DNA from: an uncultured Desulfofustis sp.
GTDB taxonomy: Bacteria; Desulfobacterota; Desulfobulbia; Desulfobulbales; Desulfocapsaceae
Assembly: GCA_905479735.1 (NCBI GenBank)
Contig: CAJQNS010000014.1
Location: forward strand, 1 to 64,000
Length of the DNA stretch: 64,000 nucleotides
Direction: 5' to 3'
Part shown: positions 31,358-54,643 of the stretch, piece by piece
How the letters are laid out: the number at the start of each line of letters is the position of its first letter
How positions within the stretch are numbered: position 1 is the stretch's first letter
The notes under the pieces: model-generated
What the model was told of the DNA's origin: nothing
The model's database searches: none
The model's input: the letters and a program-made list of their open reading frames with translations, nothing else
Translations under genes and position numbers: made by a program

Positions 31358-33973
31358 ATGACTACGCTGAAAACAAAAGACAAAACCGTGTTGAGATCGC
31401 TTGGTTTGGGCGGTTATTTCGGCGGCGGCGCCGAAGGCATGGTGGACGTAAAGAACGGCAAGATCGTCCGGGTCAGGCCGATGCGTTACGGGTGGAAATA
31501 CAAGAAAGAGGAAATCCGCCAGTGGAAGATGGAGCGCGACGGTAAAACGCTTGAGCCCACCTGGAAATCTCTGCCTGGGCCTTTCTCATTAGGCTATAAA
31601 AAGCGGGTCTACTCGCCGAACAGGGTTCCCTTCCCGATGAAAAGAATCGATTGGGATCCCAACGGCGAACGCAACCCCCAGAATCGCGGCAAAAGCAAAT
31701 TTGTCCGAATCTCATGGGACGAGGCTGCTGAGCTCATCTCCGGCGAAATCAAGCGCGTCCACAAAGAGTACGGCTACAATGCCATCCTCATGCAGGGTGA
31801 CGGTCACGGCGAGTGCAAAACCATTAACACACCTCACGGACACCCGGGGGTCTTACTCGAATACCTTGGCGGTTTCACTTTGCAGGTGCGCAACCCCGAT
31901 TCCTGGGAAGGCTGGTACTGGGGTGCCAAGCACGTCTGGGGCCAAGGTGCCCAAGGCATCATGTATCCGGCGGCCAACATCGTCAAGGATACCATCGATC
32001 ATGCCGACATGGTCCTGTTCTGGGGTTGCGACCCGGAGACCACACCCTGGGGATTCACTGGACAGTTTGCCAGTCGGCTGTGCTATTTCCTGACAGAGGT
32101 GGGAATCCAGCAGGTTTATGTCTGCCCTGACTGTAATTATGGTGCCGCCATCCATGCCGATAAGTGGATTCCGGTACTGCCCAACACCGATGCGGCGCTG
32201 CAGTTGGCCATCATCTACATGTGGCTGACGGAAGGAACCTACAACAAAGAATACGTTGAGACACATACCGTGGGTCTGGACAAGGTTGCCGATTATGTGC
32301 TGGGCAAAGAAGACAGCGTGCCGAAAACGCCGGAGTGGGCCTCACCGAAATGCGGCGTCCCGGTCTGGACCATTAAGGCATTGGCCCGAGAATTTGCAGA
32401 AAAAACCACCTCGATTGCCCACTACTTTGGCGGCGGTTTTATCCGAGGACCTTTCTCCCATGAACCTGCCCGTCTAGAGTGTATCATGCTCGGCATGCAG
32501 GGACTTGGCGGACCGGGTGTGCATCAGCATCAGTGGACCTATTTCGGACTGCCACGGGCCGAGGGTTTGGCAGGCACCTTCTTCTGGAACCCCGAGATCG
32601 AAGAACAACTGGCCCTGCCGGTGCTCAGCGCCGTATCCGCCTGGCAGAACCAGGTTATTCCCAAAACACTGATCCAGAATGCGTTCCTGACCGATGAGCC
32701 AATCACCTTCCGGGGAACCGGAGCACAGAATGCCCTGGTACACGATCAGTTCATCGAATACACCTACCCGATCGAAAAAGAGAAGGAAGGGGTGGAAATA
32801 CATATGATCTGGTCCGACTGCCCCTGCCGCATCACCTGCTGGAACTATGGCCACGAAACCGAGGTAGCCATGAGAAGCCCCCAGGTCGAATGCTTCGTGG
32901 CCCAGCATCCATGGTTCGAGAATGACTGCGTCTACGCCGATATCGTTCTGCCGGCCAACACCTATATGGAAATCGATGACATCATCACCAATATCCGCCA
33001 GGGCACGATGCAGCCCAACATCATGATCGCCGAAAAGGCCATCGAACCGGTTGGTGAATCGAAAAGCGATGCCGAGTGCGTGCGCGAGGTCGCCAAAAAG
33101 TTTGACGGCATGCTGGAAGAGATGACCGGTGGAAAAACCACTGCAGATCTGCAAAAGGCGGTGTGGGGTCACATGGGCGGAGAAAAGCTGGTCTCCTGGG
33201 AACAGCTCAACGAAAAGAGTTACTGGATCTATCCAACAGCGGAAGACTGGGCGGATGATCCTCCTGGGTTCAGGAACTTCTATGAAGATCCTGAAAAATA
33301 TCCTCTCTCCACACCCACCGGCAAACTGGAGTTCTATTCGCAGGCACTGGCCGAAGCCTATCCCGATGACAAGGAGCGCGGCCCAATCCCGAGGTGGATT
33401 GAAAAGAGTCATAACCACGATGAGCGTCTCTCCAGTCACCGGGCCAAAATGTACCCCCTGCTGATCATGTCCAACCACGGGCGCTGGCGGGTGCACGCCC
33501 AGTGCGACGATATCACCTGGACCAGGGAAGTCGAGACTTGCAAGGTGGTCGGACCTGACGGCTACAAGTATGAGCCGTGCTGGATGCACCCGAGCGAGGC
33601 AGAGAAACGGGGTATCAAAGACGGTGACATCGTCAAGGTGTATAACGAGCGCGGCATCGTTCTTGCCGGCGCCTACGTGACTGAACGGGTGCGCCCCGGG
33701 GTGGCCTATGTGGATCATGGCGCCCGACACGACCCGATCAAGACCGGTGAAATAGAGCGCGGCGGCGCCATCAACACCATCACCCCCGGCGCCATCACCA
33801 GCGAAAACTGTGTGGGCCAAATTGGCGGCGGCTACCTCGTCGAGGTACAGAAGGTCAGCGGTGAGGAGATGGACACCTGGAGGCGTGAACATCCAGAGGC
33901 CTTTGAGAGAAAATATGACCCGGCGGCAGGACTTCGTGTCGAGGCCTGGCTTGCTGACAGAGGAGAGGAATAA
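31358..33973 (+). CDS. Molybdopterin enzyme large subunit, transhydroxylase (AthL) family, paralogue 1
   Basis: 871 residues of the DMSO-reductase superfamily that bind Mo-bis-MGD. It has no N-terminal [4Fe-4S] cysteine motif, as in pyrogallol transhydroxylase AthL. NPDSWEGW carries D181-S182-W183, where the Ser is the Mo ligand in the Pelobacter acidigallici structure, and H150 (GDGHGECK) matches the active-site His. Other AthL active-site positions (Tyr152, Tyr404) are not conserved, so the substrate probably differs; resorcinol-hydroxylase-like or other ring hydroxylation is possible. There is no Tat signal, so it is cytoplasmic. Its stop overlaps the small-subunit start by one base. Closely similar to the protein at 52035-54641 over its whole length. 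Confidence 0.88.
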   Translation: MTTLKTKDKTVLRSLGLGGYFGGGAEGMVDVKNGKIVRVRPMRYGWKYKKEEIRQWKMERDGKTLEPTWKSLPGPFSLGYKKRVYSPNRVPFPMKRIDWDPNGERNPQNRGKSKFVRISWDEAAELISGEIKRVHKEYGYNAILMQGDGHGECKTINTPHGHPGVLLEYLGGFTLQVRNPDSWEGWYWGAKHVWGQGAQGIMYPAANIVKDTIDHADMVLFWGCDPETTPWGFTGQFASRLCYFLTEVGIQQVYVCPDCNYGAAIHADKWIPVLPNTDAALQLAIIYMWLTEGTYNKEYVETHTVGLDKVADYVLGKEDSVPKTPEWASPKCGVPVWTIKALAREFAEKTTSIAHYFGGGFIRGPFSHEPARLECIMLGMQGLGGPGVHQHQWTYFGLPRAEGLAGTFFWNPEIEEQLALPVLSAVSAWQNQVIPKTLIQNAFLTDEPITFRGTGAQNALVHDQFIEYTYPIEKEKEGVEIHMIWSDCPCRITCWNYGHETEVAMRSPQVECFVAQHPWFENDCVYADIVLPANTYMEIDDIITNIRQGTMQPNIMIAEKAIEPVGESKSDAECVREVAKKFDGMLEEMTGGKTTADLQKAVWGHMGGEKLVSWEQLNEKSYWIYPTAEDWADDPPGFRNFYEDPEKYPLSTPTGKLEFYSQALAEAYPDDKERGPIPRWIEKSHNHDERLSSHRAKMYPLLIMSNHGRWRVHAQCDDITWTREVETCKVVGPDGYKYEPCWMHPSEAEKRGIKDGDIVKVYNERGIVLAGAYVTERVRPGVAYVDHGARHDPIKTGEIERGGAINTITPGAITSENCVGQIGGGYLVEVQKVSGEEMDTWRREHPEAFERKYDPAAGLRVEAWLADRGEE

Positions 33974-34800
33974 TGAAAGTATTTGTCTTAGATCTCTCGA
34001 TTTGTAACGGTTGTTATTGCTGCCAGATCGCCTGCAAGGACGAACATGTCGGCAATGACTGGACTCCCTATGCGAAACCTCAACCGGATACCGGACAATT
34101 CTGGATCGGGTTGACCGAGAAAGTCCGCGGTCATGTCCCGCAAGTCAAGGTCTCCTATCTGCCGCAGCTGTGCCATCACTGCGACGAAGCACCCTGCATC
34201 GAGCAATGCGAAGCCGAGGCTATCTACAAGCGTGATGACGGACTGGTCATTATTAATCCTGAGAAATGCGTGGGTTGCAAACTATGTGCCGACACCTGTC
34301 CGCACGATGCGATCTTTTTCAACGAAGAACTGAACCTGGCCCAAAAATGCACCGGCTGCAGTCACCTGCTGGACAACGATCCTGAAGAGTGGAGCGTTCC
34401 ACGCTGCGTGGATCAGTGCCCAACCGAGGCTCTGCGTTTTGGCGAGGAAGAGGACTTCGCCGATTTTATCGCTGAAGCGGAGCCATTCAGGCCCGAGGCA
34501 AAGACCAAATCCAGGATCTATTATAAAGGGCTGCCGAAAAAATTTATCGCCGGCACCTTATACGAACCTAATATTGAAGAAGTTATTATCGGTGCCACCT
34601 GCACCTTGAAAGACCTCGAGTCCGGCGCAGAGTTTACCGAAACGACCAACAATTTTGGTGACTTCTGGCTCAAGGAGCTTCCCGACGACAGAACCTTCAC
34701 CCTGACCATCGAAAAGGACGGTTACTCTAAGGTAGTAGAAGGCCTGACCACGGATATCGACCGCGGTCTCGGTGATATCCCTATGGCTATGAAGAGCTGA
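33973..34800 (+). CDS. Four-cluster Fe-S small subunit with C-terminal beta domain (AthS-like), paralogue 1
   Basis: 275 residues. Sixteen cysteines form four cluster motifs: C11/C14/C17/C21, C67/C70/C75/C79, C99/C102/C105/C109 and C126/C129/C145/C149. After about residue 185 comes a beta-sandwich domain resembling carboxypeptidase-regulatory/transthyretin-like folds (TETTNNFGDFWLKEL), as in the transhydroxylase beta subunit. From memory, the Pelobacter acidigallici subunit has only three clusters; this one keeps all four, as in electron-transferring subunits such as DmsB. This suggests a net redox reaction for paralogue 1. Cotranslated with the large subunit. Confidence 0.9.
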   Translation: MKVFVLDLSICNGCYCCQIACKDEHVGNDWTPYAKPQPDTGQFWIGLTEKVRGHVPQVKVSYLPQLCHHCDEAPCIEQCEAEAIYKRDDGLVIINPEKCVGCKLCADTCPHDAIFFNEELNLAQKCTGCSHLLDNDPEEWSVPRCVDQCPTEALRFGEEEDFADFIAEAEPFRPEAKTKSRIYYKGLPKKFIAGTLYEPNIEEVIIGATCTLKDLESGAEFTETTNNFGDFWLKELPDDRTFTLTIEKDGYSKVVEGLTTDIDRGLGDIPMAMKS

Positions 34801-37692: not shown

Positions 37693-37883
37693 AAGTCGTG
37701 AGCAACGGTTACTTTCAGGTTACCAACCCGAACCCCGAATGTTCCAACATATGAAACTTTTACTTTTCGAAATGTCTTTACCTACGACTTTCTATTTCTT
37801 GAAACTATTTTACCGAGCCAGACAACGATCAAAGCCTGAAGCAATCACCTTAACCTATGGGCATGGATATCAAGGAGAATATT

Positions 37884-38690
37884 ATGACAGCTTTTACCAA
37901 AGATCCCTACAGCGGGTTGCAGTTGATTGAGCTCAGTCATGAGTGGGGTCACGGCGTTCCCTCTTATCCCGGACAGGATGATGTGAAAATGTTCAGAGGG
38001 GTAAAACACGGCCAGCACGGCGTCCTTGCCTGGAAGATTAACACCGTCATGCACACAGGCACCCATATGAATGCTCCTATCCATATGGTGCAGATGGCCA
38101 AAGATTTGGCTGCCATCGAACCCGATCGATTATTTGGCAACGGCGTCGTAATTGGCGTTCCTAAAACCAGTTTCGAAGTAATCACGAGCGCTGACCTGGA
38201 GGCTGCGGGTCCAGATATCAGAGAAGACGACATCGTTGTTATCGTAACCGGTTGGCATCATAAATACTCCGACGCACTCGAATATTACGGTGAATCCCCG
38301 GGACTGTCAAAAGATGCGGCGGAGTGGCTGGTTGCCCGGAAATGCAAGCTTGTGGCGGTCGATACCCCCCAGATAGACCATCCACTGGCTACCTCGCTTG
38401 GTCCGCACCGCGGCGGCCCCCTGATGAATCGTTTGGTTGCGGCTTACCAGGAGGCAACGGGGCTGGACCCCGAAAAAGAACACCCCGAATGGAATATTGC
38501 CCACCGGACTATCGCCGGGGCTGACATCCCCACCATCGAGCAGGTCGGCGGTGATGTGGACGAACTGATAGGCAAGAGGGCCACCTTTGTCGCGACCCCC
38601 TGGAAATTTGAATATGGCGACGCCTGTCCGGTCAGATTTGTCGGTATGATCGATCCGTCTGGAGACTATCGCATCCCCGCCGGCAATTAA
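37884..38690 (+). CDS. Cyclase-family (PF04199) metal hydrolase, first of tandem pair
   Basis: 268 residues from the ATG at 37884 (AAGGAGA site; an in-frame ATG at 37857 lacks one). PF04199 includes kynurenine formamidase and isatin hydrolase. The metal motif HxGTHxDxPxH appears as HTGTHMNAPIH at residues 57-67, so the usual Asp ligand is Asn63. DHP and an acidic C-terminal motif are kept. It probably opens a ring or cleaves an amide or activated C-C bond by hydrolysis. Followed 20 bp later by a divergent relative and then by a transhydroxylase-like pair, so a ring-opening step after Mo-enzyme action is a reasonable inference. Confidence 0.85.
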   Translation: MTAFTKDPYSGLQLIELSHEWGHGVPSYPGQDDVKMFRGVKHGQHGVLAWKINTVMHTGTHMNAPIHMVQMAKDLAAIEPDRLFGNGVVIGVPKTSFEVITSADLEAAGPDIREDDIVVIVTGWHHKYSDALEYYGESPGLSKDAAEWLVARKCKLVAVDTPQIDHPLATSLGPHRGGPLMNRLVAAYQEATGLDPEKEHPEWNIAHRTIAGADIPTIEQVGGDVDELIGKRATFVATPWKFEYGDACPVRFVGMIDPSGDYRIPAGN

Positions 38691-38710: not shown

Positions 38711-39493
38711 ATGAGCCTTGAAATATACAACTTGAGCCATACCTTCCAGAATCACATGCCAGAGTGGCCTTCGAGCCCGGGTGTCAATGTCACCGTCAAC
38801 AAGTTCCATGCCAAGGATGGCGTCTACCAGGTCAACTGGGAAGGGATCATGCACCGCTGCACCCATATGGATGCCCCCCTCCATGTCACCGAAAACACAC
38901 CAGGTATCAGCGAGTACCCATTGTGGCGTTTGGCCGGCACCGGGGTGGCCGTGTCCATACCCAAAGAAAAATGGGGGGTCATCAGCCCTGAGGATCTGGA
39001 AAAGGCCGACCCGGCCATCCAGGAAGGCGATATCGTCATGATCAACACCGGGTTCCACCGCAAGTGGGGTGACAACACCGACTATTTTGCCTACGGCTGC
39101 GGCATCTCCGGTGCCGGAGCCCAATGGCTGGTCGATAAAAAGGTAAAATGCGTCGGCTACGGCCACCAGGCCAACGACCATCCGATCGCCACCAAGCTGG
39201 TGGACCACGGTCTCGGACCGTCCCAGCCCCACCTGATCGACGAATACAGGGAATACACCGGCAGGGACCCGGAGGAAGACTTTCCATTATGGGAAGATGC
39301 CCATAAAAACCTGATGGTCAAAGGAGGTATTCCGGGCATCGAAAATATCGGTGGAGACATAGACAAGGTAACCGGCAAACGCTGCTTCTTCATGGCCTTT
39401 CCCTGGCGCTGGGTCAAGGGCGACGGCTGCATCGTCCGGGTCCTGGCCGTTGTCGACCCGGATCAGAGTTTTCGTTTTGAAACCGGGGCTTAG
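38711..39493 (+). CDS. Cyclase-family (PF04199) metal hydrolase, second of tandem pair
   Basis: 260 residues. The metal motif is HRCTHMDAPLH at 48-58: the Asp ligand is present (D54), but the usual Gly is Cys50. GHQANDHPIATKL later supplies the second conserved histidine region. Similarity to the first cyclase is limited to the core, so the two are not a recent duplication and may act on different intermediates or form a heteromer. GAGGAG precedes the ATG. Cytoplasmic, no signal peptide. Confidence 0.86.
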   Translation: MSLEIYNLSHTFQNHMPEWPSSPGVNVTVNKFHAKDGVYQVNWEGIMHRCTHMDAPLHVTENTPGISEYPLWRLAGTGVAVSIPKEKWGVISPEDLEKADPAIQEGDIVMINTGFHRKWGDNTDYFAYGCGISGAGAQWLVDKKVKCVGYGHQANDHPIATKLVDHGLGPSQPHLIDEYREYTGRDPEEDFPLWEDAHKNLMVKGGIPGIENIGGDIDKVTGKRCFFMAFPWRWVKGDGCIVRVLAVVDPDQSFRFETGA

Positions 39494-39675: not shown

Positions 39676-42198
39676 ATGGCGAAAAGACGATTAACAAATT
39701 GTACCAACGGCGGGCCGATATCGGTGCATGTCGAAGATGATAAAGTGACCCGGATTGAACCTCTGGTTATTGACGACAAGGATTACAAGTCGTGGGTTAT
39801 TTCAACTGACGACGGAGATTATGCTCCACCCAGAAAAGTGACGGTACCACCATTTGTGTATACCGAACGAAATCGTCTGTATTCGGAAAATAGAATCAAG
39901 TATCCGATGAAACGCCTTGATTTTGATCCTCATGGTGAACGCAACCCGGAAAATCGCGGAAAATCTGGATATGAGCGGATAAGCTGGGCTGAAGCCATAG
40001 ATATCGTTGCCGGTGAAATCCAACGGATCGGGAAGGAACATGGGCCCTCCGCGGTTACCGGGATGACCTCGTCTCACCACAACTGGGGAATTGTCGGTTA
40101 CAAGATGGGGCCGTTTGCTCGCTTCATGGAGATGATTGACTATACGCCAATTCTTGACAATCCGGATAGCTGGGAGGGCTGGCACTGGGGAGCCACTCAT
40201 ACCTATGGTTTTTTCTGGCGGGTAGGTATGCCGGAACAATATGACTTGCTGGAGGATGCCCTTAAACATACTGAGATGATTGTTTTCTGGTCCAACGACC
40301 CTGACTCGACCCGGGGAATCTATACCGGGCAGGAGTCTGTCATCTGGCGCCAATGGTTGAAAGACAAGGGTATTGAGACGGTATTTATAGACCCCTTTTA
40401 CAATTACACCAATGCGGCGATGGACGGTAAGTGGATTCCGGTAAAACCGGGTACCGACACCTGTCTGGCCATGGCTATCGCCCACGTCTGGGTTGAAGAA
40501 GACACCTATGACAAAGAATATGTCGAGACCCGAACCGTCGGCTTTGAGGAGTTCAAGCCTTACCTTCTTGGGGAGACGGATGGGGTGGAGAAAACGCCCG
40601 AGTGGGCTGAACAGGAATCAGGGGTTCCCGCTCGCACCATTCGTTCTCTGGCACGGCAATGGGCCTCAAAGGTTACCGCCCTGTCGGCAGGTTCCAGGGG
40701 AGGAGAAGGCGGGGCTTGCAGGCAGGCATATTCGACCGAGTGGGCCCGCATGATGGTGCTGCTGCAGGCCATGCAAGGATTAGGAAAACCTGGGGTCAGC
40801 ATCTGGGGAACGACCATGGGCGCGCCGACAAATACTACCCTCTGGTTCCCCGGTTACGGAGACCCACAAGGACAGATGGGGCGCTCGCCGGCGGCTGACC
40901 ACCGCCCTCAGAATGCGACTAAACAGCGTTTATACCGGCCCATTGTCCCTGATGCCATTCTCAACCCGCCAATCAAATGGCGCGGAGAAGGGTTCTGCAA
41001 CAAGAGTATCGAACAGCAGTTCACCGAATTTGAATATCCCATGGAAGGGCATTCACCGGTAAAAATGTTTTACCGTTACGGCGGTTCTTTCATCGGCACG
41101 ATGCTTGATACCAGTAAATGGCTTCGCATGTATCAAAGCCCAAATCTTGAGTTTGTCGTTAACCAGGATTGCTGGTGGTCTGGGGAAACCGGTTTTGCCG
41201 ATATTATTCTGCCTGCCTGCACCAATCTGGAGCGGGAAGATGTCGGTGAATGGGGAACGCCGGGCGGGCAGACCATGCACGCCAGCAACGGAAATAATCA
41301 TCGCGTCATCGTGCGGATGAAGAAATGTATCGACCCCTTGTGGGAGTCGAAATCGGACTATCAAATATTTTCGCTGATTGCCGAACGTCTGGGTCGTGGT
41401 GAGGAATATACTGAAGGGAAGACCGAGCTGGATTGGGCCAAGCGGTTTTTTGAAATTTCTGATTTGCCCAAACATATAAGCTGGGAAGAGTTTGATGAAA
41501 AAGGATATTACGTTGTCGGTCTGGAAGATGATTTTAAGTCGACGCCGGCACTGCGCTGGTTTGCCGAGGGCCGACCATGTGACACTCCGGATGTGAGAAA
41601 TCCCAAGAGAGAGACCGAGCTTGCAGATCAGCTTGGTACCTATACAGGTAAGATCGAGTTTGCTTCGAAGAGTCTAAGAGACAACTTTCCCGATGACGAG
41701 GAAAGGCCGGTAGTTCCCCGCTATATAAGGGCCTGGGAAGGTGAGCACAGCAAAGAGGCTGAGCAATACCCTTTCTTATTGGTATCACCGCATCCGCGTT
41801 TCACTTTTCATACCCATTATGACAAGCACAGCAGCTGGCTCAATGATATTCCTCTGCACCGGGTAAAAATTAACGGTTACGCCTGGTGGCCTGTTAGAAT
41901 TCATCCTCTTGATGCAGAAAAAAGAGGTATTCAGGATGGAGATATCGTTAAGCTCTTCAATGATCGAGGAACCGTGCTGTGCGCGGCGGTTATAACCCAG
42001 CGTATTCATCCAGGCGTCATTCACAGTTATGCCTCTTCCGCCAGCTATGACCCGATAGATCCGGGCAATCCGGACTCTCCGGATCGCGGCGGATGCGTTA
42101 ACTTACTTACCTCGTCTCGTATGATGTCAAAAAACGTAGCTGGAATGGCCCCCAATTCCTGCATGATAGATATAGCAAAATGGGAAGGAGAAATTTGA
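39676..42198 (+). CDS. athL: Pyrogallol-phloroglucinol transhydroxylase-like large subunit
   Basis: 840 residues, Mo-bis-MGD enzyme without any N-terminal Fe-S cysteine motif. Compared from memory with Pelobacter acidigallici AthL, the offset is a constant 10 residues through the first half: H134 (His144), Y142 (Tyr152), D164-S165-W166 (Asp174, Mo-ligand Ser175, Trp176) and Y394 (Tyr404) are all kept. Differences are K143 for Arg153, E344 for Trp354, and a TPGGQ segment (528-532) where AthL has Cys557/Tyr560. So the catalytic machinery is present but the substrate pocket is altered. The closest of the three large subunits here to a true transhydroxylase. Its stop overlaps the small-subunit start (ATGA). 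Confidence 0.88.
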   Translation: MAKRRLTNCTNGGPISVHVEDDKVTRIEPLVIDDKDYKSWVISTDDGDYAPPRKVTVPPFVYTERNRLYSENRIKYPMKRLDFDPHGERNPENRGKSGYERISWAEAIDIVAGEIQRIGKEHGPSAVTGMTSSHHNWGIVGYKMGPFARFMEMIDYTPILDNPDSWEGWHWGATHTYGFFWRVGMPEQYDLLEDALKHTEMIVFWSNDPDSTRGIYTGQESVIWRQWLKDKGIETVFIDPFYNYTNAAMDGKWIPVKPGTDTCLAMAIAHVWVEEDTYDKEYVETRTVGFEEFKPYLLGETDGVEKTPEWAEQESGVPARTIRSLARQWASKVTALSAGSRGGEGGACRQAYSTEWARMMVLLQAMQGLGKPGVSIWGTTMGAPTNTTLWFPGYGDPQGQMGRSPAADHRPQNATKQRLYRPIVPDAILNPPIKWRGEGFCNKSIEQQFTEFEYPMEGHSPVKMFYRYGGSFIGTMLDTSKWLRMYQSPNLEFVVNQDCWWSGETGFADIILPACTNLEREDVGEWGTPGGQTMHASNGNNHRVIVRMKKCIDPLWESKSDYQIFSLIAERLGRGEEYTEGKTELDWAKRFFEISDLPKHISWEEFDEKGYYVVGLEDDFKSTPALRWFAEGRPCDTPDVRNPKRETELADQLGTYTGKIEFASKSLRDNFPDDEERPVVPRYIRAWEGEHSKEAEQYPFLLVSPHPRFTFHTHYDKHSSWLNDIPLHRVKINGYAWWPVRIHPLDAEKRGIQDGDIVKLFNDRGTVLCAAVITQRIHPGVIHSYASSASYDPIDPGNPDSPDRGGCVNLLTSSRMMSKNVAGMAPNSCMIDIAKWEGEI

Positions 42199-42836
42199 TG
42201 AATATTGTACTCCATATTGATGTGGCTAAAGTTACCGGCTGTTACAGCAACGTGCTTACCGCCAAAGACGCATTATCAGCGGACGGAGTGGAGAATCCGG
42301 AGGTTCCCATTCGAGTAGAAGAAGTTGAATATGGTACGTACCCAAAAATCAAGGTGGATTACATTCCGATTTACGACCAGGGTATTGAAGGGGTGTTCGG
42401 CAGTGATTGGAAACAACTGGATTTTATAGTCAACAGTTGCCCCGCAGGGTCTGTTACTTGCGGTGATCTGGATGATCCGCAAAGTGAAATTTCAAAAATC
42501 AAAGCAACAGGGGATTTTGAGACATTGCCGGCTCAATACGGAGCATCTGCGCCTGGTGTTTATTATTCAAATTTACCCAAGCGGCTGCTCTGTGGAGAGG
42601 TGATTTTCGAAACTGACCAAGGTGCTGGGGCGGCAGGTATTGAAGTTTCTCTTGAAGGTGGCCCTGCGGAAATGAGCACGCCTACGGATGGTTTTGGCGA
42701 CTTCGAATTTAAAGGCCTTGATTTTGATCGCAGCTACGTTGTAACCATTTCAGCGCCGGGGTTCGCTGCCAAAAAGTTTTCAATTGAACCAGGTTCGCAC
42801 ATTGACCTTGGGCTGATTGTTCTGGAGGCCGATTAA
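42198..42836 (+). CDS. Cluster-less AthS-like small subunit
   Basis: 212 residues from the ATG overlapping the large-subunit stop (GGAAGGAG site). The N-terminus still aligns with AthS (IDVAK, EYGTYP, VDYIP), and the last ~95 residues form the same beta domain (PTDGFGDFEFKGLDFDRSYVVTI). The ferredoxin part is shortened by about 60 residues and has only C15, C81 and C88 plus one Cys near 130 in the beta domain, instead of 12-16 ligands, so no [4Fe-4S] cluster can form in the usual way. The open frame is intact and coupled to an intact partner, which argues against simple decay. Probably a structural subunit of a redox-neutral enzyme. Confidence 0.85.
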   Translation: MNIVLHIDVAKVTGCYSNVLTAKDALSADGVENPEVPIRVEEVEYGTYPKIKVDYIPIYDQGIEGVFGSDWKQLDFIVNSCPAGSVTCGDLDDPQSEISKIKATGDFETLPAQYGASAPGVYYSNLPKRLLCGEVIFETDQGAGAAGIEVSLEGGPAEMSTPTDGFGDFEFKGLDFDRSYVVTISAPGFAAKKFSIEPGSHIDLGLIVLEAD

Positions 42837-42877
42837 TTTTCTGAATATTAGCAGCGCAGCTGAAGCTGAACACCACC

Positions 42878-44614: not shown

Positions 44615-45796
44615 TTACACAGTCAATATGGTTGTACCGCTGTTGCCCATCAACCCATACGTCTGGGCCATGGCAACCTTGGCACCATCAACTTGACGCT
44701 CGCCGCAACGGCCCCTGAGCTGATTTGCACACTCAATGACCTGCCAGATGGCCTGCGCTGACAGCGCTTCGCCGTGAGATGAGAAACCGCCGCTCGGGTT
44801 TACCGCCAGCCGGCCGTCGATCCTGGTCTCTCCGTCGCGCAGCATTTTGTCTGCTTCTCCTTCCCCACAGAAGCCGCAGGTTTCGAGGTACACCAGATAG
44901 TGCCAGGAGCTGTTGTCGGGCAGTTCCAGCACGTCAATGTCTTCGGGGCCGATGCCCGATTTCTCATATGCCTGCCGGGAGGCAGAGTAGCTTTCACTGA
45001 GCATCGGTGCTTCGGCGACTGATGGGCAGGACAGGGCGGAGATACGGATAGTCGGGTCGCCGTAAATGGCGCTGCCCATCGTGGTGGCATTAATCTTAAC
45101 CGGGTTATCAGCCTTGCTGATTAGCTCTTCGTCAGCCGTCATGATAAGAGCCGCTGCTCCGGTACTGACCGGACAGATCTCGAAAAGTCTCAGGGGCTCA
45201 CAGACGTAGACGGAGTTCAACACTTCTTCCAGACTGTAGGCCTTTTTAAACCGGGCCTCAGGATTTTTTGAACCATACTCGCTCATCAGCACTTTGACCA
45301 GCGCCAGATCTTCCTCGGTGGTATCGTATTTGGCCATTCTCTTGGTGCATTCCAGGGCCCAGTAGATCGGGTTGGGCATGCCACCCATTTTCCATCGAAT
45401 CACGTCCCTGTCCTGGACGGCATTGTCCGACTTGGCCGTCAAAAAGCCTTTAGGCGAGACATCGGCGCCAAAGGCCAGGGCTGTATCGGTCTCCCCGGCG
45501 ACGACACTGTTGAATGCCATCCTGATTGCTGCTGATCCAGTGGCACAGGCGTTGTAGACATTTACTACCGGTATTCCGGTCTCACCAAAAATCGACTCCA
45601 GATACTGACCGGAAAGGTGGCCGGCGTTGCCGCCGTAAATAAAAATCCCGGCCATGATCGACTGAATCTTCTGCCACTCGATGGCTGCATCCTTCAGCGC
45701 ACCCTCAACTGCCACCGCGGCGAAGTCGGCGAATACCTGCTCTGAGAAACCCATCCAGGGGTGAATCCCGGTTCCAATTATATAGACATCTCTCAT
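44615..45796 (-). CDS. Thiolase-like acyltransferase (SCP-x/BbsB type)
   Basis: 393 residues from the ATG at 45796, chosen because GAGG lies 8 bp upstream; an ATG two codons earlier sits on the ribosome site itself. The nucleophile is C84 in NACATGSAA. The C-terminal NPSGGFSSHGEAL supplies the catalytic His. Paired with a DUF35 protein, as in thiolase/DUF35 complexes such as benzoylsuccinyl-CoA thiolase BbsAB; the Cys nucleophile argues against the Cys-less Ltp2-type aldolases. Likely cleaves a beta-ketoacyl-CoA at the end of the pathway. Last gene of a seven-gene leftward operon. Confidence 0.85.
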   Translation of the reverse strand: MRDVYIIGTGIHPWMGFSEQVFADFAAVAVEGALKDAAIEWQKIQSIMAGIFIYGGNAGHLSGQYLESIFGETGIPVVNVYNACATGSAAIRMAFNSVVAGETDTALAFGADVSPKGFLTAKSDNAVQDRDVIRWKMGGMPNPIYWALECTKRMAKYDTTEEDLALVKVLMSEYGSKNPEARFKKAYSLEEVLNSVYVCEPLRLFEICPVSTGAAALIMTADEELISKADNPVKINATTMGSAIYGDPTIRISALSCPSVAEAPMLSESYSASRQAYEKSGIGPEDIDVLELPDNSSWHYLVYLETCGFCGEGEADKMLRDGETRIDGRLAVNPSGGFSSHGEALSAQAIWQVIECANQLRGRCGERQVDGAKVAMAQTYGLMGNSGTTILTV

Positions 45797-45828
45797 TGTC
45801 ATTTCCTCAATATGATTTTATATATCGG

Positions 45829-46263
45829 TTACTTGGCGGCTTTAAAAGCCCAGGTCACCACCTGCTGTTTTTCTTCATTGGAATACATAGCCAGCGTGGT
45901 CGTTTCCATTTCCATTCCCAACTCGAGTGCCTCCAGATCGGTGTCAGTGATGATGCCTGCCACCTGGATTTTTTCTTCTTCGAACTCAACCAGGCCGATA
46001 CCGTACGGAGTGATCTTTTTCTCAGTCTTAAAAGGCGGGGGACACGGATAATGCTGGATGGTGTAGCTCGCCAACTTGCCTTTGCTGGGTAGAAGGACAT
46101 CTTCAACACCCTCACGCGAGCAGCCGGGACGATGTTGATAATGCTCCCTGGGAAAGAAATAGGTTCCGCACGAGTTGCATTTTGCACTCATCAGCCTGAT
46201 TTCACCAGTCGACCAATCCACGAGATTCGGAATTCGCGCCACTGTATTTGCCATGTTTTCCAT
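45829..46263 (-). CDS. DUF35 Zn-ribbon/OB-fold partner of the thiolase
   Basis: 144 residues from the ATG at 46263 (AGGAG seven bases upstream). An N-terminal rubredoxin-like Zn ribbon has C29, C32 and C48 (CNSCG and RPGC); the usual fourth cysteine is not evident. An OB fold follows (KGKLASYTIQHYP to TTTLAMY). In BbsA- and ChsH2-like systems such proteins are required for thiolase folding and CoA binding. 32 bp upstream of the thiolase gene. Confidence 0.85.
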   Translation of the reverse strand: MENMANTVARIPNLVDWSTGEIRLMSAKCNSCGTYFFPREHYQHRPGCSREGVEDVLLPSKGKLASYTIQHYPCPPPFKTEKKITPYGIGLVEFEEEKIQVAGIITDTDLEALELGMEMETTTLAMYSNEEKQQVVTWAFKAAK

Positions 46264-46358
46264 AGTCTGACTCCTCTCCAACTCAAATCTTATTTATAAA
46301 TTCCTTGTTAACCACGGGTACTCTGCCAATTAGGATTTTGGTTCAAGATCGGGGTCGC

Positions 46359-47126
46359 TCAGCGGCCGACAAAGTTGGGCTTTCTTTTCTCAAGAAATGC
46401 ACTCACTCCCTCTTCCTTGTCTTCCAGTGAAAGCGCCAGGGCATACATCTCATACTCATAGTCCAGCCCATCCTGCAGGCTGGTCTGCATACCCTTGTTA
46501 ATTGCCTGCTTGGCAAGTTTTAAGGCAGCCGAACTCTTGGCGGCGATTTTGGCTGCCACTTCTTTGGCCGCGTCCATCAGTTCATCCATGGGCACTACCC
46601 GGTTGACCAGACCGATCCGGTCCGCTTCTTCGGCCCTTATGATGTCGCCGGTAAAGATCAGTTCTTTGGCACGGCATGGCCCGATGAGCCTCTGCAGCCG
46701 CTGGGTGCCGCCGCCGCCTGGAATGATACCGAGATTTATCTCGGGCTGGCCGAATTTGGCCTTTTCGGAAGCAATAATCAAATCGCAGGCCATGGCAATC
46801 TCACAGCCGCCTCCTAGACAAAACCCGTTTACCGCGGCGATGACCGGTTTACTCAGTTTTTCAACGATTGAGCCCAGTCTGACGATATTGTGCGCCATAA
46901 ACGAAGTTGTGGCATGAAATTCCTTTATATCTGAGCCGGCCACAAAGGATTTCCCTGATCCGGTCAGGATCAGCACTTTGATGGTGTCATCGTTTTCTAC
47001 ATCCCGGGCGGCTTCGGTGAATTCTGCCCTGGTTTTGATGTTCAGGGCATTCATAGCCTCCGGCCGGTTGAAGGTGATGACGGCGATATTGTCTTGTTTC
47101 TCGTAAATGATGTTGTCGTAGGCCAT
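46359..47126 (-). CDS. Enoyl-CoA hydratase/isomerase family protein
   Basis: 255 residues from the ATG at 47126 (AGAGGGGAG site). A crotonase fold with both catalytic glutamates of classic hydratases, E109 (GGGCE) and E129 (GQPE), and the oxyanion-hole segment AGSDIKEF near residue 65. It therefore looks like a true hydratase. Presumed role: hydration of an alpha,beta-unsaturated acyl-CoA in a beta-oxidation-like sequence with the neighbouring thiolase. Confidence 0.9.
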   Translation of the reverse strand: MAYDNIIYEKQDNIAVITFNRPEAMNALNIKTRAEFTEAARDVENDDTIKVLILTGSGKSFVAGSDIKEFHATTSFMAHNIVRLGSIVEKLSKPVIAAVNGFCLGGGCEIAMACDLIIASEKAKFGQPEINLGIIPGGGGTQRLQRLIGPCRAKELIFTGDIIRAEEADRIGLVNRVVPMDELMDAAKEVAAKIAAKSSAALKLAKQAINKGMQTSLQDGLDYEYEMYALALSLEDKEEGVSAFLEKRKPNFVGR

Positions 47127-47136
47127 GGTCTCCCCT

Positions 47137-48519
47137 CTAGGCTGATAACTTTTGTTGGCGGATACCGTACTCACACAATTTACTGAGGGCCTTGACCCCC
47201 GAAATCAAGGATGGGAACACCGGCAGATCCTTGCCGAGTTCATCCATAATAACATTCTTGTAGCGGTTGTAACCGACGATCATACAGACAACCACCGGCT
47301 TGTCTACATCCCGGACGATTTTCTGAATAATCTTTTTCTGCACCGCTTCCTGGGTGTATTCGAAGCCGGCCAGAATAATTACCGCGGCATCGATGTTTGG
47401 GTCGCTGAAAGCGTCATAAAACGTGTTCTCCAGGGTCTTGGTAAAACCGATTTTGGTCACCGAAAAATAGAGGTCAACAGGGTTTGATACCGGGGTATCA
47501 AACATGTCCTTTAGTTTTTCAGTCGTCTCCGGCGTCATTTTAGGGAGTTCAAGACCATGGCCGGCGCACAGATCAGAGACATTAACGCCGACGCTGCCGG
47601 CCAGGGTGATCACCGCGATCCGGTTGCCTTTGGGAAGCGGCTGGGTTGAAAAAACCTTGGCGAAGTCCTTGAGCTCGGTGAAATCGTCAGCCATGATCAT
47701 GCCGGTCTGTTTCACCGCGGCTTCGACAATCTTGGCGTTGCTGGCGATACTGCCGGTATGACTCATGGCCGCCTTGGCGCCTGCCTCGGTACGCCCGCCG
47801 CTGAGAAAGATTACCGGTTTTTGGGCGGCAACCTTTTTGGCGATCCTGGTCAGGTTTCTGCCATCGGTAACCGTTTCCAGATACATTGAAATCACCTCGA
47901 CCTCATCTTCGTTGCCAAAGTACTCCAACAGGTCGTTTTCGTTGACGTCGCACTTATTGCCTATGGAACACACCTTATTGACGGCCAGGCTTTCGTTTTC
48001 AACGATGTCCGAAGCCATACCAGCCGCCAGAAGGCCGGATTGGCCGATGAGCACCACGTTGCCGTTGGGAACCTTCTTGGTCATGGGATAAATTGAGGTG
48101 ACGATATTGCGGGAGACGATGCCCGAGCAATTCGGGCCCATAACTCTGATATCATTTTTCTTTGCAATATCAACAATCTGTTGCTGAAAAGATACCCCTT
48201 CACCTCCCATCTCGGCAAAACCGGCAGACTCGATGATGACGGCCTTGACCCCCTTGTTGGCACACTCCTGCATGGTCGCCACGGTCAGTTTCGGAGTCGG
48301 CAGTGCGGTGACAACCAGGTCAACCTCTCCTGGAATTTCCGTCACTGAGCGATATACCTTATAGCCCAGGATCTCATCTGATTTCGGGTTAACCGGATAG
48401 ACCTCTCCGGCAAAATCGCTGTCGACGATATTTTTCACAATTACATAGCCAAGTTTCCCCGGGGTTCCACTGGCCCCGATAACCGCCACTGATTTCGGTT
48501 TGAAGAATAATTCCATCAT
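47137..48519 (-). CDS. ADP-forming acyl-CoA synthetase, alpha (CoA-binding) subunit
   Basis: 460 residues. A CoA-binding Rossmann domain (AVIGASGTPGKLG at 12-24) is followed by two succinyl-CoA-synthetase-like domains. The phospho-histidine is in MSHTGSIAS near residue 258. NDP-forming synthetases interconvert acyl-CoA + ADP + phosphate and acid + ATP + CoA. In many anaerobes they run towards ATP, so this could be the energy-conserving step. The beta subunit is encoded just upstream as a separate ATP-grasp protein. Confidence 0.9.
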   Translation of the reverse strand: MMELFFKPKSVAVIGASGTPGKLGYVIVKNIVDSDFAGEVYPVNPKSDEILGYKVYRSVTEIPGEVDLVVTALPTPKLTVATMQECANKGVKAVIIESAGFAEMGGEGVSFQQQIVDIAKKNDIRVMGPNCSGIVSRNIVTSIYPMTKKVPNGNVVLIGQSGLLAAGMASDIVENESLAVNKVCSIGNKCDVNENDLLEYFGNEDEVEVISMYLETVTDGRNLTRIAKKVAAQKPVIFLSGGRTEAGAKAAMSHTGSIASNAKIVEAAVKQTGMIMADDFTELKDFAKVFSTQPLPKGNRIAVITLAGSVGVNVSDLCAGHGLELPKMTPETTEKLKDMFDTPVSNPVDLYFSVTKIGFTKTLENTFYDAFSDPNIDAAVIILAGFEYTQEAVQKKIIQKIVRDVDKPVVVCMIVGYNRYKNVIMDELGKDLPVFPSLISGVKALSKLCEYGIRQQKLSA

Positions 48520-48545
48520 GGTTGCACCGTCCTTCTGGTTATCTT

Positions 48546-49256
48546 TTAGAAATTCACCCGCTCACTGCTCAAAATGATGCGGGCATCAACGACAACGGCG
48601 CCGTCGCTGTAAGCGAACACCGGGTTCATATCGATCTCCTCGATCCCGGGAGTGTCGTTGACGAAATCAGATAGCTTTACCAGCATCTCCTGAAGACAGG
48701 GAACATCGGCAGACTCCTGCCCCCGATATCCTTCCAGCAGTTTTTTACCCTGTATCTCACTGGTCATATCGACGGCATCGTTGTTATCGATCGGCACAAT
48801 GCGAAACGAGACATCTTTGAGCACTTCCACCAGAACACCGCCGAGGCCGAACATGACCACCGGTCCGAAGCTGGCATCCCTAATCATGCCCATGATGATT
48901 TCGATTCCCGCCTTGGCCATGCCCTGCACGGAAACCCCTTCGATATCGGCACCCGGAGCATAGGCCCGGCAGGAGGTCATGATCTCATCGTAAGCTTTTT
49001 CCACTGCCGCTTTGTCAGGCAGATTGACTTTAACCCCACCGGAATCACTTTTGTGGGTGATGTCCACCGATGACACCTTCAGAACCACCGGGTAACCGAT
49101 CTCCTCACTGATCGACACAGCCTCTTCCCTGCTGGCCGCAAGCACGGTCCTGGTGCAGTTTATGCCGGCCTCACCGAGGATTTGTTTGGCCTCGATCTCA
49201 GTGAGCACCGTTCTCTTCTCTTCCCGGGCCTGACTCAAAATCTCAGCTGTAGTCAT
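48546..49256 (-). CDS. ADP-forming acyl-CoA synthetase, beta (ATP-grasp) subunit
   Basis: 236 residues from the ATG at 49256; the longer open frame upstream overlaps the SDR gene and is out of character, so it was not used. ATP-grasp fold: YPVVLKVSS, the swinging-loop region THKSDSGGV, PVVMFGLGGVLVEVLKDVSF and a metal-binding IDMNPVFAY near the C-terminus. Partner of the alpha subunit 26 bp downstream. The split alpha/beta arrangement is like archaeal acetyl-CoA synthetases. Confidence 0.9.
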   Translation of the reverse strand: MTTAEILSQAREEKRTVLTEIEAKQILGEAGINCTRTVLAASREEAVSISEEIGYPVVLKVSSVDITHKSDSGGVKVNLPDKAAVEKAYDEIMTSCRAYAPGADIEGVSVQGMAKAGIEIIMGMIRDASFGPVVMFGLGGVLVEVLKDVSFRIVPIDNNDAVDMTSEIQGKKLLEGYRGQESADVPCLQEMLVKLSDFVNDTPGIEEIDMNPVFAYSDGAVVVDARIILSSERVNF

Positions 49257-49309
49257 AGCGTTTCCCTCACCGCTCCTTTTAAGGCGGAGCTGTTCATTAG
49301 TTGATTCTG

Positions 49310-50077
49310 CTAGGCTGCGGTCAATCCCCCATCGACATAGATGGTCTGACCGGAGACAAAGCTGGCGGCATCTGAACACAGAAAAACCACGGCCCCGACC
49401 ATGTCCTCGGGCATTCCTATCCTGCCCATCGGCACCGCAGCGGCATATTTGGCGGCAAGTTGCGGATCTTCGGCTATGTGTTTGGTTCCCGGAGTAATTA
49501 CCAGGGCCGGGCCCAGAGCGTTGACCCTGATGCCGCTGGGCGCCCATTCCAGAGCCAGCGCTTTGGTGATCAATTCAACCGCACCCTTGGTGGCACAATA
49601 ACCGGCATTACCACCGGTATAGCCTCGAATACCGCGAACCGACGAGAGGTTGACGATGGCTCCCTGATGCTGGTCGCGCATAACCCTGCCCACCACTTTG
49701 CAGGCCGCCATGGTACCCTTGACGTTCACCTCGAACAGTTTATCCCAGTCCTCCAGCGGATAGTCAAAGGCGTCCCGCTTTATATTCATGCCCATGGCGT
49801 TGACCAGGATATCTATTTTACCGTATTTCTCGACCACCGCATCGACCAGGCTCTGAATACTGCTCTCATCGGTAACATCGGCGGCAAGCGCAAGCGCCTC
49901 GCTGCCGGTTTTCGTGGAAATTTTCTCGGCAACTGCATCGATGGTCTGCTGATTTCGGCTCGATACCACCACCGTCGCCCCCTGATAGCCCAAGCCCAGG
50001 GCAAGCGCTTCACCGATGCCGCCGGCTCCGCCGGTAACCACTGCGACTTTGCCATCCAATCTGAACATATCTTTCAT
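49310..50077 (-). CDS. Short-chain dehydrogenase/reductase
   Basis: 255 residues from the ATG at 50077 (GAGGGTGAC site). The cofactor motif TGGAGGIG is at about 16-23. The catalytic Ser lies in NLSSVRGI, and Tyr/Lys lie in YCATK, with VNALGPALVITPGT after it. Most like gluconate 5-dehydrogenase-type SDRs; the residue after strand 2 (SSRN) suggests NADP(H). Phloroglucinol reductase is also an SDR, so ring reduction is a candidate role in this context, without direct proof. Confidence 0.88.
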   Translation of the reverse strand: MKDMFRLDGKVAVVTGGAGGIGEALALGLGYQGATVVVSSRNQQTIDAVAEKISTKTGSEALALAADVTDESSIQSLVDAVVEKYGKIDILVNAMGMNIKRDAFDYPLEDWDKLFEVNVKGTMAACKVVGRVMRDQHQGAIVNLSSVRGIRGYTGGNAGYCATKGAVELITKALALEWAPSGIRVNALGPALVITPGTKHIAEDPQLAAKYAAAVPMGRIGMPEDMVGAVVFLCSDAASFVSGQTIYVDGGLTAA

Positions 50078-50123
50078 GTCACCCTCTCTAGTATGCGTTT
50101 TCACATGTCATCGATAAGAAAAA

Positions 50124-51752: not shown

Positions 51753-52034
51753 GCACAGCTGCACGTTTCGTCTTCAGCGCCGGTAAGCGCCCTCCTAAAG
51801 TCTCCGATATATCGGGCGGTACTCCATTATTTTGGATTACAAAGGGAGGTTCTGAGCCTCCTCCGCCTCCTCCCATGACCCTCCTGCTGTTCAATATTCG
51901 CTGCAGTAAGGCTCTCCGCTTCGGTCAATGCAACAAAACTGCGGATGGCATGCTTATTGAAACACCAATTGTCAGCAGACGCGATCGTCGCCACTGCACT
52001 CCTGTTGCAGGGTCAATCAAAACAGAGGCACACA
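51753..52034. other. Intergenic region before the third Mo-enzyme operon
   Basis: Contains a perfect 12-bp palindrome CCGATATATCGG (51804-51815) and a sequence TGGCATGCTTATTGAA (51946-51961) that resembles a sigma-54 box but has GA instead of the near-invariant GC at -12. A frame extension of the following gene across this stretch was rejected in favour of the ATG at 52035. Confidence 0.35.
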
Positions 52035-54641
52035 ATGGCAGATCTGAAGCTCAAAGATAAAACGGTTTTAAGAAGCCTTGGGCTGGGCGGTTTTTTTGGA
52101 GGCGGGGCCGAAGGCATGGTGGATGTAAAAGACGGCAGGATCGTCCGCATACGGCCCATGCGTTATGGCTGGAAATATGAAAAGAAAGAGGTCCGGCAAT
52201 GGCGGATGTCCAAAAACGGTAAATCGATTGAGCCGACCTGGAAATCACTGCCAGGACCCTTCTCGCTCGCTTACAAAAAGCGGGTTTACTCCGCCAACCG
52301 AATCGCTTACCCGCTTAAACGAGTCGACTGGGATCCGGAAGGAGAGCGAAACACACAGAACCGGGGACGAAGTAAATATGTGCGTATTTCATGGGATGAA
52401 GCCAGTTCAATCATAGCCGCTGAGATTGAACGGATCCACCAGACCTATGGAGTACACGCAATTTTGATGCAGGGGGACGGACACGGCGAGTGTAAATCAA
52501 TAAACACGCCCCATGGGCATCCCGGAAACCTTCTTGACCACATGGGTGGATTCACCCTCCAGGTGCGCAACCCGGATAGCTGGGAAGGCTGGTACTGGGG
52601 TGCAAAACACGTGTGGGGGCAAGGCGTTCAGGGCAACATGTGGCCGGCGGCGAATACGGTAAACGATGCCACCGAAAACACGGAAATGATGCTGTTCTGG
52701 GGCTGTGATCCGGAAACCACCCCCTGGGGATTTACCGGTCAATTCGCCAGCAGATTGTGTTATTTCTGGTCTGAGATCGGCATGAAACAGATCTATATCT
52801 GTCCGGATCTGAATTATGGGGCAGCAATCCACGCTGACAAGTGGATCCCGATCCTGCCCAATACCGACGCCGCCCTGCAGCTCGCCATAATCCATGTCTG
52901 GCTCAAGGAAGATCTCTACGACAAAGAATATCTTCGCACCCATGCAACCGGTACCGATGAATTCTTTTCCTACGTTTTGGGTGAAGACGATTCGATTCCT
53001 AAATCCCCTGCCTGGGCAACCAAAAAGTGTGGGATTTCGGAGTGGACGATCAAAGCCCTTGCCCGCGAGTTTGCCGCTAAGACTACCTCCATTGCCCACT
53101 ACTTTGGCGGCGGTCTTATCCGCGGCCCCTACTCCCATGAGAATGCCAGGCTGGAAGTTATACTGCTGGCCATGCAGGGCCTCGGCGGTCCAGGTGTCCA
53201 TCAACTGCAGCTGACCTACTTCGGCATGCCGAGAAAAGAACGCCTCGCCGGCGGTGTCTGGAACCCGGATCTCGAAGAGCGCCTTTCCATACCGGTCATG
53301 TCTTCAATTACTGCCTGGCAGAAACAGGCCCTGCCCAAATGTCTGGTGCACAAGGCGATTGAATCGGATGAACCCATCACCTTCAGGGGGACAGGAGCCA
53401 TCGAGGGGCTGGTCCATGACCAGTTCAGTGAGTACACCTTTCCCATTCCAGAAGAGGAGGGGGGCAGCCAGATCCACATGATCTGGACCGACACCCCGTG
53501 CCGCATCACCTGCTGGAACGGTGGTAATGAAACAGAGGTGGCCCTGCAGAACCCCAAAATCGAGACCATCGTGGCCCAGCACCCCTGGCTGGAGAACGAC
53601 TGTCTGTATGCCGATATTATTCTGCCGGCAAACACCTTGATGGAAGTTGACGATATAGTCACGAATGTGCGACAGGGAACTCCACAACCAAACATCATGT
53701 TGCAGGACAAGGCCATCGAGCCCATCGGTGAATCAAAGAGCGACTTTGAAATTGTTGCCGAGGTCGCAGAAAGATTCGGGTTGAAGGAAAAACTCACCCA
53801 GGGCCTGTCAATCAAACAGTTGCAGGAACGAATCTGGCATCACATGGGCGGCGACGAGCTGGTCAGTTGGCAGGAACTGCAGGAAAAGAAGTATTGGATG
53901 TACAACACCGCCGAAGACTGGAAAGACGACCCTCCTGGATTCAGGCAGTTCTATGAGGACCCGGAAAATCATCCGCTGGGAACCAAGAGCGGCAAGCTGG
54001 AATTCTACTCAGAGGCTCTCGCTGTGCGCTTTCCAGACGACAAGGAACGTCCACCCATTCCAAAGTGGATTGAGAGAAGCGGCATGCATGACGAGCGCTT
54101 GTCCAGCAGCCGGTCCAAATCCTATCCCTTACTGCTCATGTCCAATCACGGCCGCTGGCGGGTACATTCGCAATGCGATGACATCACCTGGACCAGAGAG
54201 GTTGCGACCTGCAAAATCACCGGCAAAGACGGGTATAAATATGAGCCGGTCTGGATGCATCCGTCCGAAGCCGAGAAGAGAAGCATCTGCCATGGAGATA
54301 TCGTCAAGATTTTCAACGACCGCGGCATTGTGCTGGCCGGCGCCTACATCACAGAACGTCTCAGACCCGGCGTGGTCTATATAGATCACGGGGCTCGGGC
54401 CGATGCCATCAAGATCGGTAAAATTGATCGAGGCGGGGCCATTAACACCATTTCCCCCGACGGCATCATCTCGGAAAACTGTGTTGGCCAGGCCACCAGC
54501 GGATACCTGGTACAGATCGAGCGGCTGTCCGGAGAAGAAATGGAGGGCTGGAGACGAAAATATCCCGAGGCCTTTGCGAGAAAATACGAACCGGCCGGCG
54601 GGTTGCGTTTTGATGCCTGGGTTATCAAGAAGGAGTCCTGA
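52035..54641 (+). CDS. Molybdopterin enzyme large subunit, transhydroxylase (AthL) family, paralogue 3
   Basis: 868 residues from the ATG at 52035 (AGAGG site). It matches the 31358-33973 product along its whole length, including the opening LKDKTVLRSLGLGG, the PMRYGWKY segment, H150 in GDGHGECK and D181-S182-W183 in NPDSWEGWYWG. No Fe-S motif at the N-terminus and no Tat signal. It is cytoplasmic and expected to bind Mo-bis-MGD through Ser182. Divergence is spread evenly, so the duplication is old and both copies look functional. Its small subunit starts 2 bp after the stop, followed by a kinase-like gene that paralogue 1 lacks. Confidence 0.88.
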   Translation: MADLKLKDKTVLRSLGLGGFFGGGAEGMVDVKDGRIVRIRPMRYGWKYEKKEVRQWRMSKNGKSIEPTWKSLPGPFSLAYKKRVYSANRIAYPLKRVDWDPEGERNTQNRGRSKYVRISWDEASSIIAAEIERIHQTYGVHAILMQGDGHGECKSINTPHGHPGNLLDHMGGFTLQVRNPDSWEGWYWGAKHVWGQGVQGNMWPAANTVNDATENTEMMLFWGCDPETTPWGFTGQFASRLCYFWSEIGMKQIYICPDLNYGAAIHADKWIPILPNTDAALQLAIIHVWLKEDLYDKEYLRTHATGTDEFFSYVLGEDDSIPKSPAWATKKCGISEWTIKALAREFAAKTTSIAHYFGGGLIRGPYSHENARLEVILLAMQGLGGPGVHQLQLTYFGMPRKERLAGGVWNPDLEERLSIPVMSSITAWQKQALPKCLVHKAIESDEPITFRGTGAIEGLVHDQFSEYTFPIPEEEGGSQIHMIWTDTPCRITCWNGGNETEVALQNPKIETIVAQHPWLENDCLYADIILPANTLMEVDDIVTNVRQGTPQPNIMLQDKAIEPIGESKSDFEIVAEVAERFGLKEKLTQGLSIKQLQERIWHHMGGDELVSWQELQEKKYWMYNTAEDWKDDPPGFRQFYEDPENHPLGTKSGKLEFYSEALAVRFPDDKERPPIPKWIERSGMHDERLSSSRSKSYPLLLMSNHGRWRVHSQCDDITWTREVATCKITGKDGYKYEPVWMHPSEAEKRSICHGDIVKIFNDRGIVLAGAYITERLRPGVVYIDHGARADAIKIGKIDRGGAINTISPDGIISENCVGQATSGYLVQIERLSGEEMEGWRRKYPEAFARKYEPAGGLRFDAWVIKKES

Positions 54642-54643
54642 TC

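Follow-up and report, generated by a model that had tools for sequence, protein, structure and literature searches.

An AthS-type small subunit without cluster ligand sets beside an AthL-type molybdenum enzyme subunit in an uncultured Desulfofustis

The gene pair and its large subunit

The window analysed here is a 64,000-nucleotide stretch of one contig from an uncultured Desulfofustis sp. It contains two adjoining genes, P0001 and P0002, whose products resemble the large (AthL) and small (AthS) subunits of the pyrogallol-phloroglucinol transhydroxylase from Pelobacter acidigallici (PDB 4v4c, 4v4d and 4v4e). The pair comprises the following features.

39676..42198, + strand: P0001, AthL-type large subunit (Mo-bis-MGD catalytic), 840 aa (phmmer, Pfam, active-site alignment)
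42183..42190, + strand: GGAAGGAG, RBS-like sequence 7 nt before the P0002 ATG (sequence)
42198..42836, + strand: P0002, AthS-type small subunit without cluster ligand sets, 212 aa (phmmer, family profile, model)
42198..42473, + strand: remnant of the first ferredoxin domain, P0002 residues 1-92 (ligand columns, alignment, AlphaFold2 model)
42579..42833, + strand: C-terminal beta-sandwich domain, P0002 residues 128-212 (PF13620, E 7.7e-8; identity comparison; model)

The best solved match of P0001 by phmmer is Pelobacter AthL (4v4c_A, E 3.5e-268, residues 5-839), with likeness extending over 835 residues. An earlier note on this DNA had claimed that the large subunit keeps the active-site residues of AthL, and they are found exactly where it had placed them: H134, Y142, D164-S165-W166 and Y394 align to H144, Y152, D174-S175-W176 and Y404. 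The protein contains the Pfam domains PF21423, PF00384 and PF01568. PF21423, the first domain of AthL, stands where PF04879 would, so that P0001 has no N-terminal Fe4S4 domain. Full-length homology to AthL, the Ser ligand of Mo and the core residues place P0001 in the AthL branch of the DMSO reductase family.

The AthL pocket residues W354, C557 and Y560 are E, P and Q in P0001. The P/Q pair at the latter two positions also occurs in 8 other family members, including one (L069_4992) with all 12 ligands. P0001 has a long branch on the trees (0.30-0.47), which makes some relaxation or change of function possible. AthL is the nearest characterised relative that we found, and pyrogallol/phloroglucinol transfer, which in the transhydroxylase uses tetrahydroxybenzene as cosubstrate, is a putative activity of P0001. 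The large subunits of two further pairs in the window, described below, lack the AthL residues Y152 and Y404.

An AthS relative over its whole length

The start codon of P0002 overlaps the stop codon of P0001 (TGATG) and is preceded by the RBS-like GGAAGGAG; the small-subunit gene, with its 212 codons, is intact and translationally coupled, in agreement with the earlier reading. A single-sequence phmmer comparison with AthS (4v4c_B) gives a weak match (E 2.3e-5), and the small-subunit family profile, which includes P0002 itself, gives E 5.5e-57. The AlphaFold2 model has a mean pLDDT of 81.5, and from residue 131 onward the values are about 90 or higher. It matches 4v4c_B end to end (Z 14.4, rmsd 3.7, 200 residues), in keeping with the earlier claim that the N-terminal strand and the C-terminal beta domain of AthS are retained. 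The predicted fold of residues 1-92 is beta-alpha-beta-beta-alpha-beta. P0002 thus has the layout of AthS, a ferredoxin-like part followed by a C-terminal beta domain, in a gene that adjoins the large subunit. Residues 1-128 of the model also align with PsrB (2vpw) and ArrB (6cz7), the Fe-S subunits of DMSO-reductase-family enzymes (Z 9.5-9.6). These proteins have full Cys sets and pass electrons, whereas P0002 has no complete set and an added beta domain.

The shortness of P0002 could in principle reflect a sequencing frameshift or a wrong reading frame. No other frame of 42100-42900 resembles the family profile (best E 0.35) or contains CxxCxxC, and a frameshift is therefore excluded. Judged by sequence and model together, P0002 is an AthS relative over its whole length that lacks both the cluster ligand sets and the cluster-carrying insert.

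Loss of the cluster ligands

Paired ferredoxin clusters are bound by the first three Cys of one motif and the last Cys of its partner motif. The comparison drew on large-subunit relatives from 80 public loci and on their small subunits. The alignment of 75 small subunits contains 12 near-universal Cys columns, which by the pairing rule form three ligand sets: I1-3+IV4, I4+IV1-3 and II1-3+III4. The two paralogues of P0002 in the window (P0003 and P0004) have a fourth set, II4+III1-3, which AthS lacks.

P0002 has 4 Cys compared with 12-20 in full-length three- and four-cluster homologues, and a net length of 212 residues compared with 273-296 in most homologues. Its ferredoxin-derived part combines an 86-column alignment gap with substitutions at the remaining ligands, so that the description of the protein as shortened and cysteine-poor stands. 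Positions I1-I4 read V-C-N-A, with only I2 kept. Motifs II and III, positions IV1-IV3 and the second ferredoxin domain are missing, and a single Cys remains at IV4. No ligand set is complete, since only I2 and IV4 of one set are left. P0002 accordingly lacks the 12 Cys ligands of AthS, which bind three [4Fe-4S] clusters, as well as the 16 Cys of the four-cluster electron-transfer subunits of the DmsB/PsrB type, which both P0003 and P0004 possess. A Pfam search found no Fer4 domain in P0002 and at least 10 Fer4 matches in each of the two paralogues; NCBIfam matches of P0002 lie far under their cut-offs.

The four remaining Cys raise the question of whether C15, C81, C88 and C132 together hold a cluster or some other metal centre, in which case the complex would be reduced and not cluster-free. 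C15 (I2) and C81 (IV4) are former ligands of one and the same ancestral cluster (I1-3+IV4), which is precisely the one that one-cluster homologues retain. On the other hand, I1 and I3 have become V and N, C88 and C132 are new and do not lie at former ligand positions, and the spacing of the four Cys matches no ferredoxin motif. The domain searches above also speak against a residual centre, as does an independent protein of the same kind (L098, see below), in which I2 is the only one of the 12 ligands left. We consider a residual metal centre quite unlikely.

Ligand sets across homologues

All 12 ligands are kept in about 158 of 180 distinct family matches. Cluster loss is therefore rare, and the clusters matter in most lineages. 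Setting aside pieces cut by contig ends, short ferredoxins and two changes of a single Cys, every departure from this pattern is a loss of whole clusters. In three proteobacterial proteins (loci L069, L071 and L072), exactly the set I4+IV1-3 is replaced (by V, W, D and P); the chance that four random losses would strike exactly one cluster is 0.006. Four proteins from Bacillota (L106, L102, L183 and L178:12731-13627) also lack II1-3+III4; they have one leftover Cys and retain the full-length scaffold with the complete set I1-3+IV4. The zero-cluster state was found in P0002 and L098. The earlier note had pointed to a series of four clusters in P0003 and P0004, three in AthS and none in P0002; this series is seen, and the survey adds the two- and one-cluster homologues, so that ligand sets range from 4 (window paralogues) through 3 (AthS), 2 (Proteobacteria) and 1 (Bacillota) to 0 (P0002 and L098).

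Several of these loci have further features. The two-cluster AthS homologues (L069:962-1834, L071:972-1844 and L072:962-1834) belong to pairs whose large subunits group with Pelobacter AthL and which lie divergently beside another AthLS pair, one in which the 12 ligands are complete. L178:12731-13627, from Lachnospiraceae SIG272, is an orphan one-cluster small subunit of 298 aa with no large subunit adjoining, on a contig that also bears a zero-cluster pair. Some Bacillota have a 109-aa ferredoxin-like ORF with 9 Cys just upstream of an AthL-type gene (L076:4599, L077:4612, L082:808 and L085:4589), and similar upstream ORFs occur in L074 and L054.

A second, independent case

We found the form seen in the window once across 144 relatives, 93 genomes of the family and an even sample of 395 genomes of the phylum, in a single genome assembly of 260 contigs that is 90.65% complete. 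The AthS-like genes read from the genus and the family are of full length and encode 13 or more Cys. The earlier note had counted the absence of similar cluster-less proteins from related genomes against its own reading, and none was present in any other of the 93 family and 395 phylum-sample genomes. This result is offset by the independent case outside the phylum, which is also the kind of AthL neighbour with a cysteine-poor small subunit that the note had suggested looking for.

That case, L098 (L178:5344-5979, Lachnospiraceae SIG272), is a 211-residue zero-cluster small subunit beside an AthL-type gene. It shows a deletion like that of P0002, and its model matches 4v4c_B end to end (Z 12.8). 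Its contig also carries a cyclase pair, and the locus includes genes for a short-chain dehydrogenase and a BKACE-like protein. In the large-subunit tree, L098 is sister to the one-cluster L102 and L106, inside Bacillota with intact ligands (SH-aLRT 96); its zero-cluster state is thus derived near one-cluster relatives. P0001 lies among intact-ligand sequences of Desulfobacterota, Myxococcota and SAR324, with no firm sister. A single origin was rejected by the AU test with 37 rows, where placing both in one clade costs 267 log units (p-AU 2.9e-7). None of the 200 bootstrap trees (0%) unites the two zero-cluster rows, and the small-subunit tree likewise requires two changes to the zero state. 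By these sequence comparisons, the zero-cluster state arose separately in the window lineage and in Lachnospiraceae. A second origin in a distant phylum, together with the graded intermediates, indicates that cluster loss is tolerated. The earlier statement that the clusters are dispensable therefore stands as to tolerance and is too general as a rule, given that most family matches keep all 12 ligands.

Six large subunits from Dehalococcoidia (L095, L097, L099, L100, L103 and L108) form a group with a support of 98, and no small-subunit gene was found in their flanks of up to 5 kb (short in L099 and L097). In L099, L100, L103 and L108 the AthL-type gene is followed by a nitroreductase-like gene, as judged by eye. 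Sequences of 119-120 aa in Dehalococcoidia (L173-L175) that looked like C-terminal domains encoded on their own were discarded because they start or end at contig edges. In L018, L050, L051, L062, L075 and L092 the small subunit seemed to be missing only because of long upstream starts; normal genes are present. In G146, G148 and G149, full-length AthS-like genes adjoin a P0005-type large subunit or are absent, and G150 has unpaired small subunits; all four assemblies may be incomplete. A large subunit acting alone in Dehalococcoidia is only a lead.

Signs of maintenance and of decay

A gene in decay might also lose its ligands, in which case P0001 would be inactive, act alone or borrow the four-cluster small subunits encoded in the window. 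No end branch of the small-subunit tree is longer than that of P0002 (2.18), the GC3 of P0002 lies under that of its neighbours (0.42 compared with 0.54-0.72), and the Dehalococcoidia provide large subunits without an adjacent small subunit. To set against this, the reading frame is intact, with its start-stop overlap and strong RBS-like sequence, the same architecture occurs in an unrelated lineage in an intact and adjacent gene (L098), and P0003 and P0004 have large subunits of their own alongside. The pattern of divergence is also informative. In pairs with large subunits 65-70% identical, normal small subunits have an identity of 0.41±0.05 in the beta domain and 0.59±0.05 in the N-terminal part. 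The corresponding values for P0002 are 0.36 in the beta domain, about 1 SD below the expectation from large-subunit divergence, and 0.38 in the ferredoxin part, about 4 SD below it. Constraint appears to have been released mainly in the cluster domain, the beta domain being nearly as constrained as usual. Drift confined mainly to the cluster domain fits conversion to a structural partner and is unlike a decaying gene. We regard decay or borrowing as quite unlikely.

Gene neighbourhood

The following genes of the window surround the pair.

31358..34800, + strand: paralogous pair P0005/P0003 (large and small subunit); P0003 has all 16 ligands, for four clusters
37857..38690, + strand: 'cyclase'-family hydrolase 1 (PF04199, E 1.6e-32), found near AthLS genes in other loci
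38711..39493, + strand: 'cyclase'-family hydrolase 2 (PF04199, E 1.7e-28)
44615..50104, - strand: thiolase, OB-fold protein, enoyl-CoA hydratase, acyl-CoA synthetase (two genes) and short-chain dehydrogenase (Pfam)
51945..55480, + strand: paralogous pair P0006/P0004 (large and small subunit); P0004 has ligands for four clusters

Both PF04199 genes lie directly upstream of P0001, and the two cyclases are paired in 8 of 82 related loci, including that of L098. The PF04199 'cyclase' family includes dihydrophloroglucinol cyclohydrolase, and a phloroglucinol degradation pathway (PGR, DPGC, TfD and TAL) has been described (PMC10470551). Such clusters have the cyclase-family DPGC next to a reductase, a dehydrogenase and a cleavage enzyme. 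Compared with them, the window has two PF04199 cyclases and genes for a short-chain dehydrogenase, a thiolase and acyl-CoA synthetase; a phloroglucinol-type set that has a BKACE-like gene as well was found only in L178. Cyclase 1 is a likely candidate for a ring-opening step in the pathway of P0001 and P0002.

Most of the genes at 44615-50104 have counterparts of 79-93% identity beside 12-ligand AthLS pairs in several Desulfobacterota loci. In the Desulfofustis locus L033, genes up to 92% identical to the pathway genes of the window adjoin AthLS. Given these shared neighbourhood genes, P0001 and P0002 probably serve a pathway like that of their relatives with clusters. L033 has a 12-ligand AthLS pair beside an IclR gene, a place held in the window by P0006/P0004. 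With the divergent P0001/P0002 located elsewhere and P0006/P0004 in the L033-type place of AthLS, the arrangement looks like a gene replacement.

A possible route for a reaction without an electron wire

These results lead us to favour, as the likely explanation, a working two-subunit Mo-bis-MGD enzyme in which the small subunit is free of clusters and purely structural and the reaction is a redox-neutral hydroxyl transfer. We infer that P0001 and P0002 assemble and that the small subunit carries no iron. P0002 would act as a structural partner through what is left of its ferredoxin fold and through the C-terminal beta domain. On this view the fourth cluster was already gone in AthS, and different lineages shed the other three by whole ligand sets. 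With no wire, electrons would neither enter nor leave through the small subunit, and the reaction at Mo should then be closed: one phenol would lose a hydroxyl or oxygen and another would gain it, as in pyrogallol-phloroglucinol transhydroxylase, and any redox change at Mo would be paid back inside the active site. The neighbouring cyclases, short-chain dehydrogenase, acyl-CoA synthetase, enoyl-CoA hydratase and thiolase could then open the ring and break down the product. An oxygen transfer that involves no net oxidation or reduction has a precedent in the transhydroxylase (PMC10420851).

Alternatively, P0001 could carry out a net oxidation or reduction and exchange electrons directly with a soluble molecule or protein. 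This possibility is compatible with cluster loss and is a rival to the explanation above only as regards redox neutrality. The resorcinol hydroxylase RhL, of the PgtL/AthL family, takes electrons from resorcinol, and DorA has no N-terminal cluster (PMC10100899). DorA, TorA and BisC are the next-best solved matches of P0001 and resemble it in having Mo-bis-MGD, a Ser ligand and no Fe-S; they differ in having no such small subunit, in being net reductases with outside donors and in lying outside the AthL branch. No cytochrome or redox-partner gene was found among the neighbouring genes scanned, and three clusters, which a soluble-donor enzyme would not need, persist in most homologues of the clade. 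As the transhydroxylase is redox-neutral and the resorcinol hydroxylase yields electrons, loss of the wire argues for a closed reaction, and we hold a net redox reaction to be unlikely.

An electron wire is a puzzling feature in an enzyme without net redox change. We tentatively suggest, as a possibility with somewhat less than an even chance, that the clusters of AthS are leftovers of an electron-transferring ancestor. They would have been shed stepwise (4, 3, 2, 1, 0) in several lineages towards a purely structural subunit and perhaps, in Dehalococcoidia, towards no adjacent subunit. The window enzyme would be an iron-free end point that transfers hydroxyls without a relay. We found no account of a cluster-less AthS-type subunit in the open literature searched, a body that leaves most subscription journals outside.

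With the same loss in unrelated gut bacteria, the role of the clusters is now directly testable. Related catalytic subunits occur in nature with small subunits that have three, two, one or no complete ligand sets, which allows that role to be compared directly. The simpler, possibly iron-free form may be useful for studying how phenol hydroxyl transfer works and for expressing and engineering such enzymes.
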